Part shown: piece by piece, positions 144-30,851 of the stretch
How positions within the stretch are numbered: position 1 is the stretch's first letter
Layout: every line of letters starts with the position of its first letter
Source of the DNA: a virus
Strand: one strand, 5' to 3'
Length of the DNA stretch: 30,851 nucleotides
IMG/VR virus record: IMGVR_UViG_3300034198_004497
Coordinates: 1 to 30,851 of that record
The notes under the pieces: generated by a model
The model's input: the letters and a program-made list of their open reading frames with translations, nothing else
Databases searched by the model: none
Told to the model about the DNA's origin: nothing
Program-made: the position numbers and the translations under genes

Positions 144-518
144 GTGTTGAGTAGCCTTTTTGCCAATGAAGTGCAGCAGTCCATAGTCACACTCGCCGCA
201 CTACTAGCAGCGGTTACTGTGATTGGAGCGTTTGCCAACTCTCGAATCATCAAGCCGCTAGTGATGCTTTACAACAAAGTCAACAACCTGCTCGAGCAAC
301 TGCAAGACAACACGGACGGCATCAAGGCAGTGCGTGATGAGATAGGCGCAATCAAGTACGAGATTTCGACAAACGATGGTGGCTCAATGAAAGACGCGCA
401 AAAGCGTATGGAGTTGTGTCAGCACCAAATGTTTGAGCAGTTAGAAACACTCAGGCTAGCCGTTGAGATCGACCATCAACTACTTGTCCAATACATAGAC
501 AACAAGGAATCATCATGA
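144..518 (+). CDS. membrane-anchored coiled-coil protein, DUF2746-like
   Basis: This 124-residue protein starts with GTG two bases after the preceding stop. One hydrophobic segment lies at about residues 14-34 (IVTLAALLAAVTVIGAF). A long helical, probably coiled-coil stretch follows (NKVNNLLEQLQDNTDGIKAVRDE), then the motif STNDGGSMKDAQKRME. The N-terminal membrane segment, Asn/Glu-rich coil and N-G-G-S-hydrophobic-x-D pattern resemble DUF2746 proteins, small membrane proteins of actinobacteriophages often found near lysis genes. The holin encoded two genes later supports a role at the inner membrane during lysis. The precise job is unknown, and spanin-like or holin-accessory roles are both possible. 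Its stop overlaps the next start (ATGA), which indicates translational coupling. Confidence 0.6.
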   Translation: MLSSLFANEVQQSIVTLAALLAAVTVIGAFANSRIIKPLVMLYNKVNNLLEQLQDNTDGIKAVRDEIGAIKYEISTNDGGSMKDAQKRMELCQHQMFEQLETLRLAVEIDHQLLVQYIDNKESS

Positions 519-784
519 AGCCGAACCCCGCCAAGCCGCCGAAGGGTGCAAGCATCCCGAAGGTCGCTCCTAAGAATCCAAAGCTTCCGGCCAAGCCAAT
601 CACGTCAACGCCGGTCACGCGCAAGCCTCCGGTGAAAGGCAAGCCCGTTGAAGGGCCGAAGGCTGTCAAGAGCCGGGGGATGCAGATGGGTGATGCCATT
701 GCTCCCACCAAAGCGCAGAAGAACGCATACGACATGAAGAAGGCCCAGGAGCGTTACATGGCTGCCAAGGCCAGGAAGAAGTAG
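515..784 (+). CDS. small Lys/Pro-rich basic protein
   Basis: The product has 89 residues and is dominated by Lys, Pro and Ala (for example NPKLPAKP and RKPPVKGKP), followed by a helical basic C-terminus (AYDMKKAQERYMAAKARKK). The first half is likely disordered and the whole protein strongly positive, so it could bind nucleic acid, membrane or another virion component. The ATG overlaps the stop of the membrane-protein gene (ATGA), and the holin gene begins six bases after its stop. I do not recognise a family. Similar low-complexity K/P tracts recur at the N-terminus of the protein encoded at 11841-12779. Confidence 0.65.
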   Translation: MKPNPAKPPKGASIPKVAPKNPKLPAKPITSTPVTRKPPVKGKPVEGPKAVKSRGMQMGDAIAPTKAQKNAYDMKKAQERYMAAKARKK

Positions 785-14176: not shown

Positions 14177-14216
14177 ACACAGCCCCGTTGCCTTTCACTA
14201 GGTGACGGGGCTGTGT
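14177..14216 (+). terminator. terminator-like hairpin between scaffold and capsid genes
   Basis: ACACAGCCCCGT and ACGGGGCTGTGT form a perfect 12-bp stem with a 16-base loop, followed by TATGTT rather than a long T run. It lies ten bases after the scaffold stop. It may partly terminate transcription or protect the upstream mRNA 3-prime end, which would help uncouple scaffold from capsid levels. It is followed directly by the structured capsid leader. Confidence 0.75.
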
Positions 14217-15425: not shown

Positions 15426-15458
15426 CCTTGGGGTGTCTCAGCGTGAGACACCCCAAGG
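15426..15458. terminator. strong hairpin after the capsid gene, containing palindrome copy 3
   Basis: A perfect 15-bp inverted repeat with a 3-base loop (GCG) starts seven bases after the capsid stop. The inner seven pairs are TGTCTCA/TGAGACA, the dispersed palindrome, and the outer eight add CCTTGGGG/CCCCAAGG. No T run follows. As RNA it would be a very stable terminator or 3-prime protective hairpin; as DNA it contains a full operator-like site. The next gene has its own AAGGAG site at about 15484. Confidence 0.8.
15434..15450. repeat. dispersed palindrome, copy 3 (TGTCTCAGCGTGAGACA)
   Basis: This copy has 7-bp arms around GCG and forms the inner part of the post-capsid hairpin. It is the only copy extended into a much longer perfect inverted repeat, so transcription termination and protein binding could act at the same spot. 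Confidence 0.85.
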
Positions 15459-23379: not shown

Positions 23380-23425
23380 ACAGCCCCCCACCCGGCTGAC
23401 TTTGGGAGTCTGGGTGGGGGGCTGT
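23380..23425. terminator. bidirectional terminator between convergent gene blocks
   Basis: ACAGCCCCCCACCC and GGGTGGGGGGCTGT form a perfect 14-bp stem with an 18-base loop. The stem lies in the gap between the last rightward gene (stop at 23372) and the last leftward gene (stop at 23433). On the + strand it is followed by CCTATTTC. The convergent layout makes a two-way terminator very likely. Confidence 0.9.
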
Positions 23426-25594: not shown

Positions 25595-25745
25595 CTAGCC
25601 GCACCACCAGTCGTTCTTGACGATCGCGCATCGCCGCGATTCGTGGCTCCTGCGACTCACGGCCACGCTTGAAAGCGATGTTGCTGACGATGATGGTGTA
25701 GATGGGCAGCACGATGACGAGCGCCCAGATGAGGTCGTTGTTCAT
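25566..25745 (-). CDS. 59-residue single-pass membrane protein
   Basis: On the minus strand an ATG at 25743-25745 overlaps the stop of the RecB-like gene (ATGA) and opens a 59-codon frame. It reads MNNDLIWALVIVLPIYTIIV, then SNIAFKRGRESQEPRIAAMR and a basic tail ending RNRRRD. Residues 5-25 form one membrane segment, and the C-terminal 35 residues are helical and highly charged, so the basic tail probably stays in the cytoplasm. It fills the 147-base gap between two annotated-size genes. The coupling, composition and frame support a real gene. Membrane attachment of recombination or replication machinery, or a superinfection function, are guesses. Confidence 0.65.
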   Translation of the reverse strand: MNNDLIWALVIVLPIYTIIVSNIAFKRGRESQEPRIAAMRDRQERLVVRLDAERNRRRD

Positions 25746-26683
25746 GAGCGCACCTTCCGCACGTCAAGGCGCTCGTAGCCGGCCCGCTCGAACGAGGGAA
25801 CCTGCGAGCCGTTGATGTACGTCCAACGTGCCTGGTATCGCCCGGTAGAGCCGGACACCCCCACCAGCATGGCTTTAGCTTCGTCCTTCAAACGCTTGGC
25901 TTCCTTCTCGAGACGCTGGCCTTCGACGTACATATCTATCGCCCCGACGAGCTCGGGGTCGCTGATGTATTCGCTGTTTTCGTCAGGGAGGCTGCCGCGG
26001 CAAGCAGTGAAGAACTCGCAAATCTTCTCGCACACGGGCGCTGCCACGTCACGTTCAGCGTCCTCGTTATTGACGACCGCGTACGTCACGTCGTCAATCC
26101 ACGAACTGATCTGGTCAGTAAGCGACCAGTCGGCTTCCTCAATCTCGACGTACGGCATTTCTGTGGCACCGGAACGGTCGAGGTAGACGTTGCAGACGTA
26201 GATCGGCTTAGTCGGGTCAAGCCAACCCTTCTCGATTGCACCCAGCAGGTACAGGTGGCGCTGGAACTTGTTGGACTGGTCGGAGCCGTAGCGTGCGACG
26301 TACTCGAGGCCGTCCTTAGTTTTGAGGTCGATGATTGCGTTCCAGTCGGGGGCAACAATGTCGGGGGTGCCGCTGACTTCCGCACCGTTCGGCAGGGTGG
26401 CGGTGACGCGTTCCTGCTCAACGATCCAGTCGGGGAACTGAACCTTGATGATGCTTTCCACGAAGTTGTGAATGGCCGTGCCAACACCGGCAGCCCACAC
26501 GGGCGTCGAATCTGTTGCCTTGACTCCTTTCGTCATGAGTGCTGCCTTTTGCCGGCAGAACCCGATGTTGGAGGGGCCGAGTTGACCGGCAGCGGCTTGC
26601 TTGGATCGAGCGGAGCCGTGGATGCCGGCTTTGATCGCCTCAGCGAACACGAACGAGATTGTCTGTGCGTCGGGGGTGCTCAT
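25742..26683 (-). CDS. RecB/Cas4-like PD-(D/E)XK exonuclease with probable Fe-S cluster
   Basis: The 313-residue protein likely resects DNA ends to feed the Rad52-like annealing protein encoded just upstream, overlapping by ATGA. The nuclease core has VSGTPDIVAPDWNAIIDLKTKDG at about residues 100-123: the acidic PD and the D-x-K catalytic pair. A conserved H in AIHNFVESI lies near residue 71. Cys43 (NIGFCRQ), together with VCEKICEFFTACRG near residues 217-231, supplies one distant and three clustered Cys (C-x3-C-x5-C). This is the arrangement that binds a 4Fe-4S cluster in Cas4 and AddB-type nucleases. The start has AAGGAGG. A lambda-Exo-like role in annealing recombination is inferred. Confidence 0.8.
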   Translation of the reverse strand: MSTPDAQTISFVFAEAIKAGIHGSARSKQAAAGQLGPSNIGFCRQKAALMTKGVKATDSTPVWAAGVGTAIHNFVESIIKVQFPDWIVEQERVTATLPNGAEVSGTPDIVAPDWNAIIDLKTKDGLEYVARYGSDQSNKFQRHLYLLGAIEKGWLDPTKPIYVCNVYLDRSGATEMPYVEIEEADWSLTDQISSWIDDVTYAVVNNEDAERDVAAPVCEKICEFFTACRGSLPDENSEYISDPELVGAIDMYVEGQRLEKEAKRLKDEAKAMLVGVSGSTGRYQARWTYINGSQVPSFERAGYERLDVRKVRS

Positions 26684-27513
26684 GCCTGATCCTCCTTAGC
26701 GAACGAACCAGCGGCAACGAGGTCCGCGAGTTGCCCGTACGTTATGTTTCCGTGACCTGGCACTTCGGTCATCATGGTCAGAATGTCGGTTCCGGTGGCC
26801 GCGGATTTGAGCGACGCGACGACAAGGACACGCTCGCGGGCCTTCGAGTTGCTAGCGACCGCGCGCAGCTCGGAGAGCCACATTTCGTGATCGACAGTCA
26901 ACGGCAGGTCGTCTGTCTCAGTCTGAGACACTGCCTTCGGGTTGGTGCGGCTGATTTCTTCCCGAGGCGGGTTGTAGGTCGCCTCGTCCTTCGAGTGAGC
27001 CTCATCCCCAAGATCGTTGACTGGCGCTTCCTGCACCACACCAGCAGCCATGTCGGGACGCACGATGGTGCCCATGACGAACGCCGACTTCTGACCCTTG
27101 TTGTAGAGGCTCAGACCGAACTGGTCGCCAAGGTTGCTGCATGCCCGCTTGATTGCAGTAGACACCGCCGATGTGAGTGCTAGTGCGTGCGCTTCGGCCC
27201 GGTCAGGTTGAGGCATGTTGCCACTGGCGTGGCTGTCCTGATACGACGCAAGAAACGTGCCGTCCGGGGCGTCAATGCTGACCTCGACGGTGGCCCGGTA
27301 GCCGACCTTCCACCGCTTCTGCTCGTTCTGTTCCTCAAACAGCATCACCGTCTCAACGACGCGGGTAGACCAGCGCCCGAAGCCGAAGATGCGGTTCATG
27401 TGTGCGCGAATGTCGTGCTGCGCGACGTAAGACATGCCCTTCAAGTCAAGGACTCGAGTCGGGTTGATGGGGGCGATCAAACGATCGTATTGCTCGTTGG
27501 AAAGGTAAGACAT
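26680..27513 (-). CDS. Rad52-like single-strand DNA annealing protein
   Basis: The protein anneals complementary single strands in phage recombination. The start is taken as the ATG at 27513, with GGGAG seven bases upstream; the promoter lies close enough that the upstream ATG at 27543 would fall near or before the start of transcription. It has 277 residues. The N-terminal 150 contain GMSYVAQHDIRAHMNRIFGFGRWSTRVV, a beta strand region (YRATVEVSIDAPDGTFLASYQDSHASG), and AEAHALALTSAVSTAIKRACSNLGDQFGLSLYNKG. The last pattern (A.K.A.S.A.KRA...G...G..LY) is the Rad52/Rad22 signature. The C-terminal part is acidic and variable, ending KEDQA, possibly an SSB or partner contact. The leader is complementary to the loop of the sRNA at 29328-29460. 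Confidence 0.85.
   Translation of the reverse strand: MSYLSNEQYDRLIAPINPTRVLDLKGMSYVAQHDIRAHMNRIFGFGRWSTRVVETVMLFEEQNEQKRWKVGYRATVEVSIDAPDGTFLASYQDSHASGNMPQPDRAEAHALALTSAVSTAIKRACSNLGDQFGLSLYNKGQKSAFVMGTIVRPDMAAGVVQEAPVNDLGDEAHSKDEATYNPPREEISRTNPKAVSQTETDDLPLTVDHEMWLSELRAVASNSKARERVLVVASLKSAATGTDILTMMTEVPGHGNITYGQLADLVAAGSFAKEDQA
26914..26930. repeat. dispersed palindrome, copy 5 (TGTCTCAGTCTGAGACA)
   Basis: This copy lies inside the Rad52-like gene and is identical in sequence to copy 1. It is read as V-S-Q-T-E-T in the variable C-terminal part of the protein, where a non-structural sequence can be tolerated. Confidence 0.85.
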
Positions 27514-27531
27514 GGTTTTTCTCCCTAGTTG
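27514..27531 (-). promoter_or_regulatory. ribosome-binding leader of the Rad52-like gene, sRNA-complementary
   Basis: On the minus strand the bases before the ATG read CAACTAGGGAGAAAAACC, with GGGAG as the ribosome-binding site. The + strand RNA from 29335-29352 (GGTTTTTCTCCCTGGTTG) pairs with all 18 bases, 17 Watson-Crick and one G-U. Pairing would cover the ribosome site and reach the start codon, so repression of translation is the expected effect. Confidence 0.6.
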
Positions 27532-27544
27532 CTTGTTTGTCATG

Positions 27545-27573
27545 ATTTTAGTGCAACGTGCATTGTGAGTCAA
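27545..27573 (-). promoter_or_regulatory. sigma70-type promoter for the annealing/nuclease operon
   Basis: On the minus strand TTGACT (27568-27573) and TAAAAT (27545-27550) are separated by exactly 17 bases, each one mismatch from consensus. Transcription would begin near 27538 and leave a leader of about 25 bases ending in the AGGGAG site. The -35 overlaps the stop codon of the HNH gene. This would drive the genes from 27513 down to 23433. Confidence 0.7.
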
Positions 27574-27929
27574 GGTGCGTTTGGTGCAGTTGGGTCTGTG
27601 ATAGCGAGCGTTTTGCCACCAGCGTCATCGAGCAGCCACCACTGTCCTCGCAAGATGACGGGAACATCGGATGGTTCCTGCCACTGGTGTACGAGCCAGC
27701 CGTTCTTGTACGACTTGGCTCGCCACATTTCCACCATCCGTAGATGACAGGTTGAGCACAGGTGCAGCAGGTTGCACGCCCGGTCGATTATGTCACTCCT
27801 GCTGCCACCCATTTTTCGTGGCTTGCGATGGTGCATGTGCATGAAGTGGGTGGACAGCCCGCAAATCTCGCATCGCCCACCGGAGCGTTCCCTGACTGTC
27901 TCACGCTGAGACGTGGGGATGCCGCTCAT
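27570..27929 (-). CDS. HNH endonuclease
   Basis: From the ATG at 27929 this is a 119-residue protein. It has Cys20 and Cys23 (CEIC), a catalytic HH at 33-34 in MHMHHRKPRKMGG, Asn53, Cys58 and Cys61 (CSTC), and His62. Together these form the zinc-stabilised beta-beta-alpha HNH fold that nicks or cuts DNA. The C-terminal half (YKNGWLVHQWQEPSDVPVILRGQWWLL) is an added beta region typical of phage HNH proteins that act in packaging or replication, though here it is far from the terminase. The ATG overlaps the stop of the 28-residue microprotein (ATGA), which supports this start over an in-frame TTG at 28034. It also carries palindrome copy 6. Confidence 0.8.
   Translation of the reverse strand: MSGIPTSQRETVRERSGGRCEICGLSTHFMHMHHRKPRKMGGSRSDIIDRACNLLHLCSTCHLRMVEMWRAKSYKNGWLVHQWQEPSDVPVILRGQWWLLDDAGGKTLAITDPTAPNAP
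27897..27913. repeat. dispersed palindrome, copy 6 (TGTCTCACGCTGAGACG)
   Basis: This is the only imperfect copy: one outer base differs (G in place of A at 27913). It sits near the 5-prime end of the HNH gene and encodes S-Q-R-E-T on the minus strand. Both arms otherwise match the consensus. Confidence 0.75.
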
Positions 27930-28012: not shown

Positions 28013-28545
28013 TTGGTCTCCTTGATGCCGGCAATCGAATCCCACGCCACGCTTTTTGCTGGCTTGATGTACGGAGTGGGCGGTACGGGGAAGCCGCACT
28101 CGCAGTAGTTGTGACGACCAGCGGTGATGAACTTTGAGCACCCCTGGCATCGCACCGTGTGGGTCACCCCAACATCATCGAGGGTGAGACTGACAAGGGT
28201 GAGCTTCTCGCCGCAGTTGACGCACCGGGCGTTCATTCCGGGGGACGAACCGCGCTGATACGGCTGGGAGCAGCTCGAACATTCAGGCGAACCGACCGAC
28301 GTATCTGTGGCGCGCCGCGAGTTTGCCCGCAACTGCTCTTGGATGCCCGTCACAGTGACCTGATGCGGGTTAGCGGAGCCGTACCAGCGGTGAATGACCG
28401 TGACAACCTCATCGAGTTGCCACGACCGCAGGTACAGCATCCACGCCTGCACTTTTGCGGCCCGTGCTTCCTCAGTGGACACCCGGTGGCGAGGATCAAG
28501 ACCTTCCACCGTCAACAGCAATGATCGAACCTCGTCGGCGTTCAC
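28009..28545 (-). CDS. replication accessory protein with multiple zinc-ribbon pairs
   Basis: The 178-residue protein starts at a GTG that overlaps the initiator stop (GTGA), after AGGAGG. Residues 1-75 are helical (MNADEVRSLLLTVEGLDPRH, then WMLYLRSWQLDEVVTVIHRWYG and VTVTGIQEQL), with the spacing of small helicase-loader proteins such as the G39P type. The rest has CSSC at 89-92, CVNC at 108-111, CQGC at 133-136 and CEC at 148-150, forming two zinc ribbons. Its place directly after the replication initiator supports a role in loading the replicative helicase. The loader label is an inference from pattern and context. Confidence 0.6.
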   Translation of the reverse strand: MNADEVRSLLLTVEGLDPRHRVSTEEARAAKVQAWMLYLRSWQLDEVVTVIHRWYGSANPHQVTVTGIQEQLRANSRRATDTSVGSPECSSCSQPYQRGSSPGMNARCVNCGEKLTLVSLTLDDVGVTHTVRCQGCSKFITAGRHNYCECGFPVPPTPYIKPAKSVAWDSIAGIKETK

Positions 28546-29279
28546 AGGGAACCTCCTGAGAGCCGCTCTAAAGCCTCCACGAAGGCCGGGTCCATGCCGG
28601 CGTAGGCAGCGGGCTGTTCGTCAAGCCACCGCTGCGCCCACAGCCACGTTGCAGGGTGTGGGACGTACTGCTCGCCCGCGGCAAGGTTCCATCCGATGCC
28701 TTTGCGAGTCGCTTCGATGACTTGCTCGGCAGTCGTCTCCTTCATGGCAGCGCGCCACGCTCGAGCCGCTGCGCCCTTGGCGACCTTGCGAGGAACGACC
28801 CTCCACCAGTCGTCAAATCCGACGCTCGGCGTCGCGTTAGCGGCGGTGAGCAAGAGTTCTTGTTCTTGGTCTTGTTCTATTGGTCTTGTTTGTCCCCCAT
28901 CCACGGGGGGGGAGTCCCCCACTGACGGGGGGGTGGTATCCCCCACTGATGGGGGGGTATCTTCGTCGGGCCGCGAGTAAGCTTTAGGGATCACCACGTC
29001 GAGCAGCCGGGTCGATGACGACACTTGCACTCCTGTTGCGCCGTACTGAGGCGAACGGTCGATGACACCGTTTTGCACCAACTCTTTGATGAGCCGCTGC
29101 GTCGTGTTGACTGAAATCCCTAGTGCTTCGCTGACTGTCGAAGTCGAAGGCCAGCAGTAGCCTTTTTCGTCAGCGTACGTCGCGTACAGCGCGTACAGCG
29201 CCTTTGCCTGCGGAGATAACGATGGATCGCGCATGATCGTTGATGCGATGACACCAAACGAACGTGAAAGCCTAGACAC
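28542..29279 (-). CDS. winged-helix replication initiator
   Basis: The start is the GTG at 29277-29279, four bases after AGGAGG; upstream in-frame starts lack such a site. The 245-residue protein has an N-terminal winged helix (LSPQAKALYALYATYADEKGYCWPSTSTVSEALGISVNTTQRLIKELVQNGVIDRS) of the HTH_36 type. Low-complexity linkers follow (TPPSVGDTTPPSVGD, then QDQEQEL). The C-terminal domain (GFDDWWRVVPRKVAKGAAARAWRAAM, then YVPHPATWLWAQRWLDE) is shared by phage replication initiators. The linker-coding DNA carries the C5-N6-G7/8 repeats, a likely origin, as in lambda O. The accessory protein follows immediately. Confidence 0.8.
   Translation of the reverse strand: MSRLSRSFGVIASTIMRDPSLSPQAKALYALYATYADEKGYCWPSTSTVSEALGISVNTTQRLIKELVQNGVIDRSPQYGATGVQVSSSTRLLDVVIPKAYSRPDEDTPPSVGDTTPPSVGDSPPVDGGQTRPIEQDQEQELLLTAANATPSVGFDDWWRVVPRKVAKGAAARAWRAAMKETTAEQVIEATRKGIGWNLAAGEQYVPHPATWLWAQRWLDEQPAAYAGMDPAFVEALERLSGGSL
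28866..28960. repeat. candidate replication origin: C/G tandem units and direct repeats inside the initiator gene
   Basis: Three tandem units of CCCCC-N6-GGGGGGG(G) lie at 28894-28912, 28916-28933 and 28940-28957, spaced 22 and 24 bases apart. The two left-most inner sequences are ATCCAC and ACTGAC, the third ACTGAT. Beside them, in an AT-richer stretch, TTGGTCTTGTT occurs twice, at 28866-28876 and 28880-28890. The layout of iteron-like units next to AT-rich repeats within the initiator linker resembles phage origins of the lambda O type. The G tracts could also form quadruplexes, and the long homopolymers may slip. Confidence 0.5.
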
Positions 29280-29291
29280 ACTTCCTCCTGG

Positions 29292-29321
29292 TTGACGTGT
29301 TGGATTGTGAGAACGTACAAT
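29292..29321 (+). promoter_or_regulatory. sigma70-type promoter for the + strand sRNA
   Basis: TTGACG (29292-29297) and TACAAT (29316-29321) lie 18 bases apart on the + strand. Both are one mismatch from consensus. A start site near 29328 would place the first hairpin of the predicted RNA at its very 5-prime end. It points opposite to the surrounding genes, which would be pointless unless a small RNA is made. Confidence 0.65.
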
Positions 29322-29327
29322 GTGGCG

Positions 29328-29460
29328 CAGCGCAGGTTTTTCTCCCTGGTTGAGCCTGCGCGAGAGTGGCACTGCCGCTCCCTTGCTCTAACCCCGTTTA
29401 CGGAGCGAGGTACGAAAGTGCGGGGATCGGGCCTGATAGAACCCGATCCCCGCACTTTCA
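29328..29460 (+). ncRNA. candidate small regulatory RNA, antisense to the Rad52-like leader
   Basis: Downstream of the promoter at 29292 the + strand has four consecutive hairpins. H1: GCGCAGG/CCTGCGC, 18-base loop (29330-29361). H2: GAGTGGC/GCCGCTC, 3-base loop (29364-29380). H3: CCTTGCTC/GAGCGAGG, 14-base loop (29381-29410). H4: a perfect 17-bp terminator stem (29415-29458). The non-Watson-Crick pairs in H2 and H3 are G-U on this strand and would be A-C on the other, which shows the direction. The H1 region 29335-29352 pairs over 18 bases, one of them G-U, with the ribosome site of the Rad52-like gene. The RNA also overlaps the leader of the initiator in antisense. It is probably a repressor of annealing-protein synthesis; this is not proven. 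Confidence 0.65.
29415..29458. terminator. terminator hairpin shared by the small basic gene and the sRNA
   Basis: Arms of 17 bp (left arm 29415-29431, right arm 29442-29458) pair perfectly around the 10-base loop CCTGATAGAA. It lies seven bases after the stop of the leftward gene at 29466 and at the 3-prime end of the rightward sRNA, so it can serve both. The outer pairs are AAA/TTT, giving a T run at the end of the stem on either strand but no long U tract beyond it. Confidence 0.9.
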
Positions 29461-29465
29461 CTGCA

Positions 29466-29726
29466 TCAGGACGCTGCAAGAGCCTCGTCTACGATGCCGT
29501 CACCGTACTGTGCAGCGAGAGCGGCGATCTTCGCCTTCGCCTCGTTGCGTCGGCGCTCAGTGACCAGAGCACCACGTTCCTGAGCCGACAGCCGAGTCCG
29601 GTAGGTCCGGCCTTCGTTGGCGTACTCAGCGGCGAGCAGCGTGCGGTATTCATTCGGGTACTGCTCACGAAGCTTCTTCGAGGCCCGCTGCGCGAGTGTT
29701 GCCGATGACGCCTGCTTGTCTGACAT
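29466..29726 (-). CDS. small basic helical protein of unknown function
   Basis: The 86-residue protein is preceded by AAAGGA six bases before the ATG and by palindrome copy 7 (29744-29760). It is helical with many Arg, Ala and Glu (SSATLAQRASKKLREQYPNEYRTLLAAEYANEGRTYRTRL), then TERRRNEAKAKIAALAAQYGDGIVDEALAAS. No zinc or catalytic motif is seen. The alternating basic helices could bind DNA. Because a palindromic site sits just upstream and a strong terminator just downstream, it is expressed as its own unit and is a candidate for the regulator that binds the palindrome, though this is speculative. Confidence 0.65.
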   Translation of the reverse strand: MSDKQASSATLAQRASKKLREQYPNEYRTLLAAEYANEGRTYRTRLSAQERGALVTERRRNEAKAKIAALAAQYGDGIVDEALAAS

Positions 29727-29764: not shown

Positions 29765-30175
29765 CTAGAACGGTGGTTCCTCGGACTGGGTAGGATACCC
29801 CGAGACAGGGGACGATACACCAGATGCTTTGGCCGTCAATGCCGTCCCAAACATCATGGTAGGTCCGAAGGTGTCTGCAAGGATACGGTAACTGGTCCGC
29901 TTCTGACCATCCTTTTCGTATTCTTGCTGTTGCAACTTGCCAACAACAAACACCTGATCGCCTTTGCGGACAGACTCAACGAAATGTTCCGCTGGCTTGC
30001 CGAAAGCAACCACGTCAATAAACGTGGCATCCCCATCGACCCAAGTACCGTTTTCGCCGCGCACACGATCCTTGCACGCCACACGAAAGCGAACCCACGC
30101 CTTGCCCTGCTGGCTAAATGCCAGCTCGGGGTCAGCGACGAGGCCGCCTTCCAATATCGTCATTGGTAGACCCAT
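29765..30175 (-). CDS. ssb: single-stranded DNA-binding protein
   Basis: The 136-residue protein coats single-stranded DNA during replication and recombination. The start at 30175 is chosen because AGGAGG lies six bases upstream and MGLPMTILEGGLVADPELAF is the normal SSB N-terminus. The OB fold is clear: a strand GKAWVRFRVACKDRVRGENGTWVDGDATFIDVVAFGKPAEHFVESVRKGDQVFVVGKLQQQEYEKDGQKR, followed by a strand in SYRILADTFGP. The C-terminus ends SEEPPF, the acidic tip that recruits partner proteins. The start overlaps the upstream gene by 44 bases, so the two may be translationally coupled. Confidence 0.93.
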   Translation of the reverse strand: MGLPMTILEGGLVADPELAFSQQGKAWVRFRVACKDRVRGENGTWVDGDATFIDVVAFGKPAEHFVESVRKGDQVFVVGKLQQQEYEKDGQKRTSYRILADTFGPTMMFGTALTAKASGVSSPVSGYPTQSEEPPF

Positions 30176-30524
30176 GTCGTCCCTCCTTCTCTTGCCAAGC
30201 CGCCAACATGGGAGCAAAGTCCCCGAGACGGATGTAAACGGTAGCGTCCTCCGCGTATGGGATTCCGATTCGTGCTGCTTCCATGCTGCTGTATGTGCTG
30301 ATGACAAACCCAAGCGTCTTGCGACCGTGGGTAATGTCAGCAAGGTAGTACAGCGGTGAACGTCCTCGATGAGCACGGCCCATGAGTCGAGCCATGCCCC
30401 CGTTGTAGATGATGCGAGTGCGAGTGCCAGGCTCTTTCAGATTCTCGACACCATGCACGCCACCACCAATGAGGCAGTTCATGATCGGTTTCATGTTGCT
30501 GCTGCGGTAAAGCCGTTCACCCAT
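30132..30524 (-). CDS. small protein of unknown function upstream of SSB
   Basis: From the ATG at 30524 this gene encodes 130 residues; a GTG at 30536 would add four. The sequence has a Gly-rich part (MNCLIGGGVHGVENLKE), then NGGMARLMGRAHRGRSPLYYLADITHGRKTLGFVISTYSSMEAARIGIPYAEDATVYIRLGDFAPMLAAW, and a basic tail. It overlaps SSB by 44 bases at its end and the next upstream gene by 8 at its start. The TVYIRLGD part resembles the TVIYMRLRDG end of the gene at 30517, hinting at distant relatives or a shared small domain. I do not recognise a family. Confidence 0.55.
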   Translation of the reverse strand: MGERLYRSSNMKPIMNCLIGGGVHGVENLKEPGTRTRIIYNGGMARLMGRAHRGRSPLYYLADITHGRKTLGFVISTYSSMEAARIGIPYAEDATVYIRLGDFAPMLAAWQEKEGRHGSTNDDIGRRPRR

Positions 30525-30814: not shown

Positions 30815-30851
30815 ATGCCGCTAGGCTATCACGCGGATAACCTAGCGGCAT
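30815..30851. terminator. hairpin at the right end of the window
   Basis: ATGCCGCTAGG (30815-30825) and CCTAGCGGCAT (30841-30851) form a perfect 11-bp stem, with TATC/GATA pairing further inside after a single mismatch. It ends exactly at the window edge and lies upstream of the leftward gene at 30777, so it is most simply the terminator of a gene beyond the window. It could also be an operator or a processing hairpin. Because the window stops at its last base, any extension is not visible. Confidence 0.65.

Follow-up and report, generated by a model that had tools for sequence, protein, structure and literature searches.

The promoter of the phage lambda OOP RNA (pO-oop-tO) lies at the start of gene O, and its transcript reads away from that gene and stops at a hairpin close to where the preceding gene ends (PMC5869508). 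The c4 RNA of phages P1 and P7 is an antisense RNA whose complementary sequences, which are probably located in loops, pair around the ribosome-binding site (RBS) of ant (PMC12197685). Intergenic non-coding RNAs with no known function or target have been described in mycobacteriophages D29 and StarStuff (PMC5712189). The word “recombination” is absent from the main text of the 2025 review of phage small RNAs (PMC12197685).

The stretch of DNA analysed here (the window; 30,851 bases) is the whole record of an uncultured bacterial virus. It includes a non-coding spacer, around which the local genes are on the - strand. On this strand, the SSB gene, an 86-aa ORF, the spacer, and the replication initiation protein gene rep are followed in order by an unknown gene, an HNH endonuclease gene, rad52, and a candidate exonuclease gene (Table 1). 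Comparison of rep homologues placed the rep start at the same position, and the Rad52-like identity that an earlier note on this DNA had given to the target gene agrees with its Pfam match. A + strand ORF of 138 aa (29292–29708) spans the region and is mostly antisense to the 86-aa ORF.

Table 1. Features of the spacer, its surroundings, and the corresponding spacers of three relatives.
Feature	Position	Strand	Remarks
Candidate exo	25742–26683	-	nuclease name from position and general appearance
rad52, Rad52-like annealing protein gene	26680–27513	-	Pfam PF04098, E 1.8e-17
Candidate target, rad52 ribosome site	27514–27531	-	CAACTAGGGAGAAAAACC, directly before ATG
rad52 promoter, TTGACT-N17-TAAAAT	27545–27573	-	10/12 matches; immediately upstream of rad52
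rep, replication initiation protein gene	28542–29279	-	GTG start, AGGAGG; phrog_270, E 3.3e-37
Non-coding spacer, 186 nt	29280–29465		between 86-aa ORF and rep
Sigma-70-type promoter, TTGACG-N18-TACAAT	29292–29321	+	10/12 consensus matches
Putative small RNA, ~130 nt	29328–29460	+	start predicted from promoter; 3′ end predicted, uncertain
H1	29330–29361	+	GCGCAGG...CCTGCGC stem; pairing sequence in loop
Pairing sequence	29335–29352	+	GGTTTTTCTCCCTGGTTG, H1 loop region
H2	29364–29380	+	GAGTGGC-act-GCCGCTC; one U-G pair on + strand
H3	29381–29410	+	stable on + (-12.7), weak on - (-9.2, z -0.98)
H4	29414–29459	-	18 Watson-Crick pairs, perfect stem, 10-nt loop
86-aa ORF	29466–29726	-	weak homologues in some relatives
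SSB gene	29765–30178	-	
Gene-sense structured RNA, L066	2600–2721		after SSB or small ORF
Gene-sense structured RNA, L067	4422–4540		after SSB or small ORF
Gene-sense structured RNA, L065 (by layout)	376–548		after SSB or small ORF

Comparison of the putative RNA with the described systems revealed that (i) as in lambda OOP, its promoter is located at the start of the initiator gene and reads away from it, and a hairpin lies near the end of the preceding gene; (ii) OOP overlaps cII and acts as antisense in cis, whereas the putative RNA only abuts the preceding gene (H4 ends at 29459, 6 bases from the stop of the 86-aa ORF at 29466, without overlapping it) and has a candidate target in trans, rad52; no sequence relation to OOP is claimed; (iii) as is probably the case in c4, a phage loop sequence is complementary to the ribosome site of another phage gene, but the c4 target is the antirepressor gene ant, whereas the candidate target here serves recombination, lies at a distance of 1.8 kb, and has a promoter of its own; and (iv) as with the RNAs of D29 and StarStuff, which are phages of Actinobacteria, it lies in an intergenic gap; one relative of the window was found in an Actinomycetales MAG. 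No match of the window to Rfam reached the gathering threshold, and the weak matches below it were mostly to miRNA models. Our best reading is that the RNA would be placed like lambda OOP and would act like c4 of P1 and P7; known parallels exist.

The promoter that had been proposed on the strand opposite to the local genes is present, and its -35 box is found a short distance upstream of the rep GTG (29279), adjoining the rep Shine-Dalgarno sequence. In the 30.85-kb record, only two sites match the consensus at 10 or more of 12 positions, namely, the spacer promoter and the rad52 promoter; the shuffled record contains a mean of 0.93 such sites, which corresponds to ~0.006 expected per 186-nt spacer. 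At the lower threshold of at least 9/12, 6 sites were observed across the record versus 8.7 expected, which is not above chance. This count, together with the lack of conservation in relatives, would fit a locus with no RNA function at all, in which a promoter match and hairpins arose by chance beside an 18-mer that is itself accidental or duplicated. Such a coincidence is very improbable in our estimation, as several unlikely features occur together in one 170-nt non-coding spacer.

The four adjacent hairpins described after the promoter were found as H1–H4 (29330–29459). The full putative RNA folds with an MFE of -78.6 (z -9.99). When H4 is left out, the + strand folds at -41.3 kcal/mol (z -4.56), which no shuffled sequence equals, versus -34.4 kcal/mol (z -2.50) for the - strand; the difference of -6.9 kcal/mol was reached in 1.2% of shuffles (p 0.012). 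The + strand suits H1, H2, and H3 better, and the - strand suits H4 better (-40.5 versus -37.7 on the + strand). The argument of the earlier note, that the non-Watson-Crick pairs are G-U on the + strand and A-C on the - strand, stands for H2 and H3 and also reaches into H1; H4 shows the reverse preference. We predict that a + strand RNA is made from the spacer, and we consider this probable.

The pairing sequence in the H1 loop region repeats the rad52 ribosome site with one change, which gives 17 Watson-Crick pairs and one G-U pair. Both the gapless 18-base pairing and the G-U as its sole non-Watson-Crick pair, as noted earlier, hold. The complement of the pairing sequence, CAACCAGGGAGAAAAACC, is RBS-like, and with as many as 3 mismatches allowed, the two sites are each other's sole matches in the record, where shuffles predict 0.00. 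The loop pairs with the rad52 start region over these 18 contiguous bases at -31.9 kcal/mol, versus -19.7 for the second-best gene in the record. This value lies beyond the controls: the best of 1000 shuffled loops reached -28.1 (0/1000 as good), and the other ribosome sites in the record, taken as reverse complements, reached -25.1 kcal/mol at best. With folding costs included, rad52 shows a net cofold gain of -12.4 kcal/mol and the next gene one of -6.7. When gene leaders from the record and 20 related loci were compared pairwise, 2 of ~5960 pairs matched at 17/18; a conservative figure is thus a ~1% chance that an RBS-like sequence matches one of 30 leaders this well. The complementarity to rad52 is outlying and target-specific, and these comparisons support it. 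A separate suggestion, that the 18-mer is a common RBS element, was rejected; its 16-mer core occurs just 20 times in the viral collection, with many copies before an ATG.

The status of H4 differs from that of the other hairpins. Its stem is one pair longer than the 17 bp first counted, and its assignment as the small RNA's own terminator is not supported: checked as an intrinsic terminator, the hairpin is strong and neither strand carries a U-tract, the - strand gives the better fold, and hairpins occur in the same spacer of relatives. For the first two of these reasons, the predicted 3′ end of the RNA is uncertain. H4 is probably the boundary hairpin of the - strand SSB gene group rather than part of the RNA; a + strand RNA could possibly share it to end, or not. 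Other long hairpins without a U-tract are located at gene boundaries at 14177–14216, 15426–15458, 23380–23425, and 30815–30851. The last of these is a perfect 11-bp inverted repeat that closes the record; it may be a further hairpin of the gene-boundary type, truncated where the contig stops. In most of the spacers of 13 relatives, a long hairpin likewise comes after the SSB gene or the small ORF that follows it; such a hairpin is absent in two distant relatives, L159 and L160.

These hairpins bear on the view that the spacer serves the - strand only. H4 would then be a gene-boundary hairpin after the SSB and 86-aa genes, functioning in termination or 3′-end protection, H1–H3 would belong to the structured leader of the rep unit, and the loop of H1 would match the rad52 RBS because it is a duplicated or decayed RBS. 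The occurrence of long hairpins in the same spacer of most relatives, the similar U-less hairpins at other gene boundaries, and the greater stability of H4 on the - strand are all consistent with this view; moreover, approximately half of the 20 unrelated viral loci with the 16-mer core have an ATG directly after it, and L055 and L081 show other leader duplications at 17/18. However, the H1 loop is not followed at a working distance by an ATG, GTG, or TTG, the spacer contains no - strand promoter of at least 9/12, H1–H3 fold better as + strand RNA, and the flanks of the two 18-mer copies do not match, which argues against duplication of an RBS. We regard this account, taken as a whole, as a serious possibility and lean against it.

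A + strand RNA might instead act in cis on the rep leader or on origin firing, like lambda pO, with the rad52 match being incidental. The position of the promoter next to the rep Shine-Dalgarno sequence would suit such a role, as would the full complementarity that the RNA would have to read-through rep transcripts, the origin-like repeats inside rep, and the 9/12 promoters found in the same place and orientation in the relatives L056 and L057. Two observations make a cis role unlikely: the rad52 complementarity is a statistical outlier, and the rep ribosome site lies outside the RNA, the pairing of the loop with rep (-19.7) being no better than the shuffled-loop mean (-20.0).

In the reading that we prefer, with rad52 as the target in trans, a + strand RNA of ~130 nt would be transcribed from the spacer promoter, starting just upstream of rep and reading away from it, and its H1 loop would present the 18-base sequence for pairing with the entire ribosome site of the rad52 mRNA. 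The predicted rad52 transcript starts ~25 nt before the ATG, as judged from its promoter, and the pairing site makes up most of this leader, including the Shine-Dalgarno sequence. Pairing with a rad52 mRNA made from its own promoter would block binding of the 30S subunit, leading to less Rad52 and probably less of the downstream exonuclease. In the predicted folds, H1 and the rad52 leader each leave just a part of the 18-base site unpaired; therefore, pairing would have to start at the CCCU of the loop and then open H1. As a caution, any - strand read-through transcript would include a perfect complement of the RNA and would bind it first, as a sink.

The promoter match, the strand-biased fold, and the specific complementarity are computed, and from them we infer transcription, the 3′ end, repression, and purpose. 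That the + strand RNA is made and also acts on rad52 is a proposal that we lean only slightly against on the sequence evidence. The fuller version, in which an OOP-placed RNA covers the short rad52 leader in trans and shuts off the annealase, so that replication and recombination are timed together, is tentative and rather doubtful. The interpretation is plausible and specific and rests on one genome, and that of the earlier note is partly supported. If true, it would provide a case in which a small RNA controls a single-strand annealing protein, in a phage family that has received little attention, and would mean that a trans-acting regulator can occupy the OOP position. This makes for a sharp prediction, with one loop and one target.

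Relatives of the window were collected through the terminase (11 loci with strong matches at 59–69% identity, of which two share a record, and one weak match in addition), the exonuclease alignment (34 loci plus one genome contig, mostly belonging to one phage family by gene order), and a Rad52 protein scan (one, 53%). Scans with the Rep protein and the major capsid protein found no relative, a search with the rep alignment (65 loci) found no new member of the window's phage family with the spacer, and the alignment of the 86-aa ORF was too weak for searching. In 11 related records, nothing matched the spacer sequence itself convincingly. Cultured phages that carry relatives of Rad52 were rejected for comparison, as their gene order differs. 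Thirteen relatives hold the spacer. When either strand of the spacer was compared with the relative's own rad52 leader in these 13, which are too distant to align, nothing exceeded 13/18, the background level; these relatives are too divergent for the check by paired changes between loop and leader that was proposed earlier. Because the rad52 proteins of these relatives are just 37–53% identical to that of the window, the comparison shows that the pairing is no ancient feature of the family and does not bear on the window's own lineage. The 13 relatives without the pairing, and three relatives with a sense-strand RNA layout at the spacer, count against the trans reading.

In two of these three, L066 and L067, the same spacer near the SSB gene instead contains a structured RNA of ~115 nt, with four compensatory pairs between the two sequences. 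It resembles the putative RNA of the window in size, structure, and location, and differs in lying on the gene-sense strand, in having its promoter partly within the preceding hairpin (the -35 box falls at the boundary-hairpin loop), and in ending at a U-rich terminator. The third, L065, has the same layout with a different sequence. The stems of the L066/L067 RNA covary, and its U-rich terminator has an alternative pairing partner. The L066 RNA had no Rfam match at the gathering score, and a covariance model built from L066 and L067 (R1) had no match in the window at E values up to 5.

Several further features of the window and its relatives were observed. At the rep start of L056 and L057 (positions 185–207 and 386–408 of the regions examined, respectively), a 9-bp hairpin with the arms TATCTCCTC and GAGGAGGTA includes the rep ribosome site in one arm, a possible translation switch. 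Three similar 19-mers are located inside rep at 28893–28957; two are TCCCCCACTGAYGGGGGGG, and the third has 3 mismatches. They are a candidate replication origin, placed like the lambda origin repeats in gene O. The palindrome TGTCTCA-N3-TGAGACA occurs seven times in the window (4814, 13706, 15434, 23619, 26914, 27897, and 29744), with one end base changed in the copy at 27897. Relatives have repeated palindromes of their own: GTGACAC-N1-GTGTCAC in L025 (10 copies), the GTCCCAA-N2-TTGGGAC type in L056 (8 copies), TTCAGA-N1-TCTGAA in L085 (8 copies), and another in L055 (4 copies). These repeats are operator- or stoperator-like, and their sequences are phage-specific. Finally, the MAG that contains the family member L092 (JAGWVT010000017.1) is named Actinomycetales bacterium, which hints at the group to which the host belongs.
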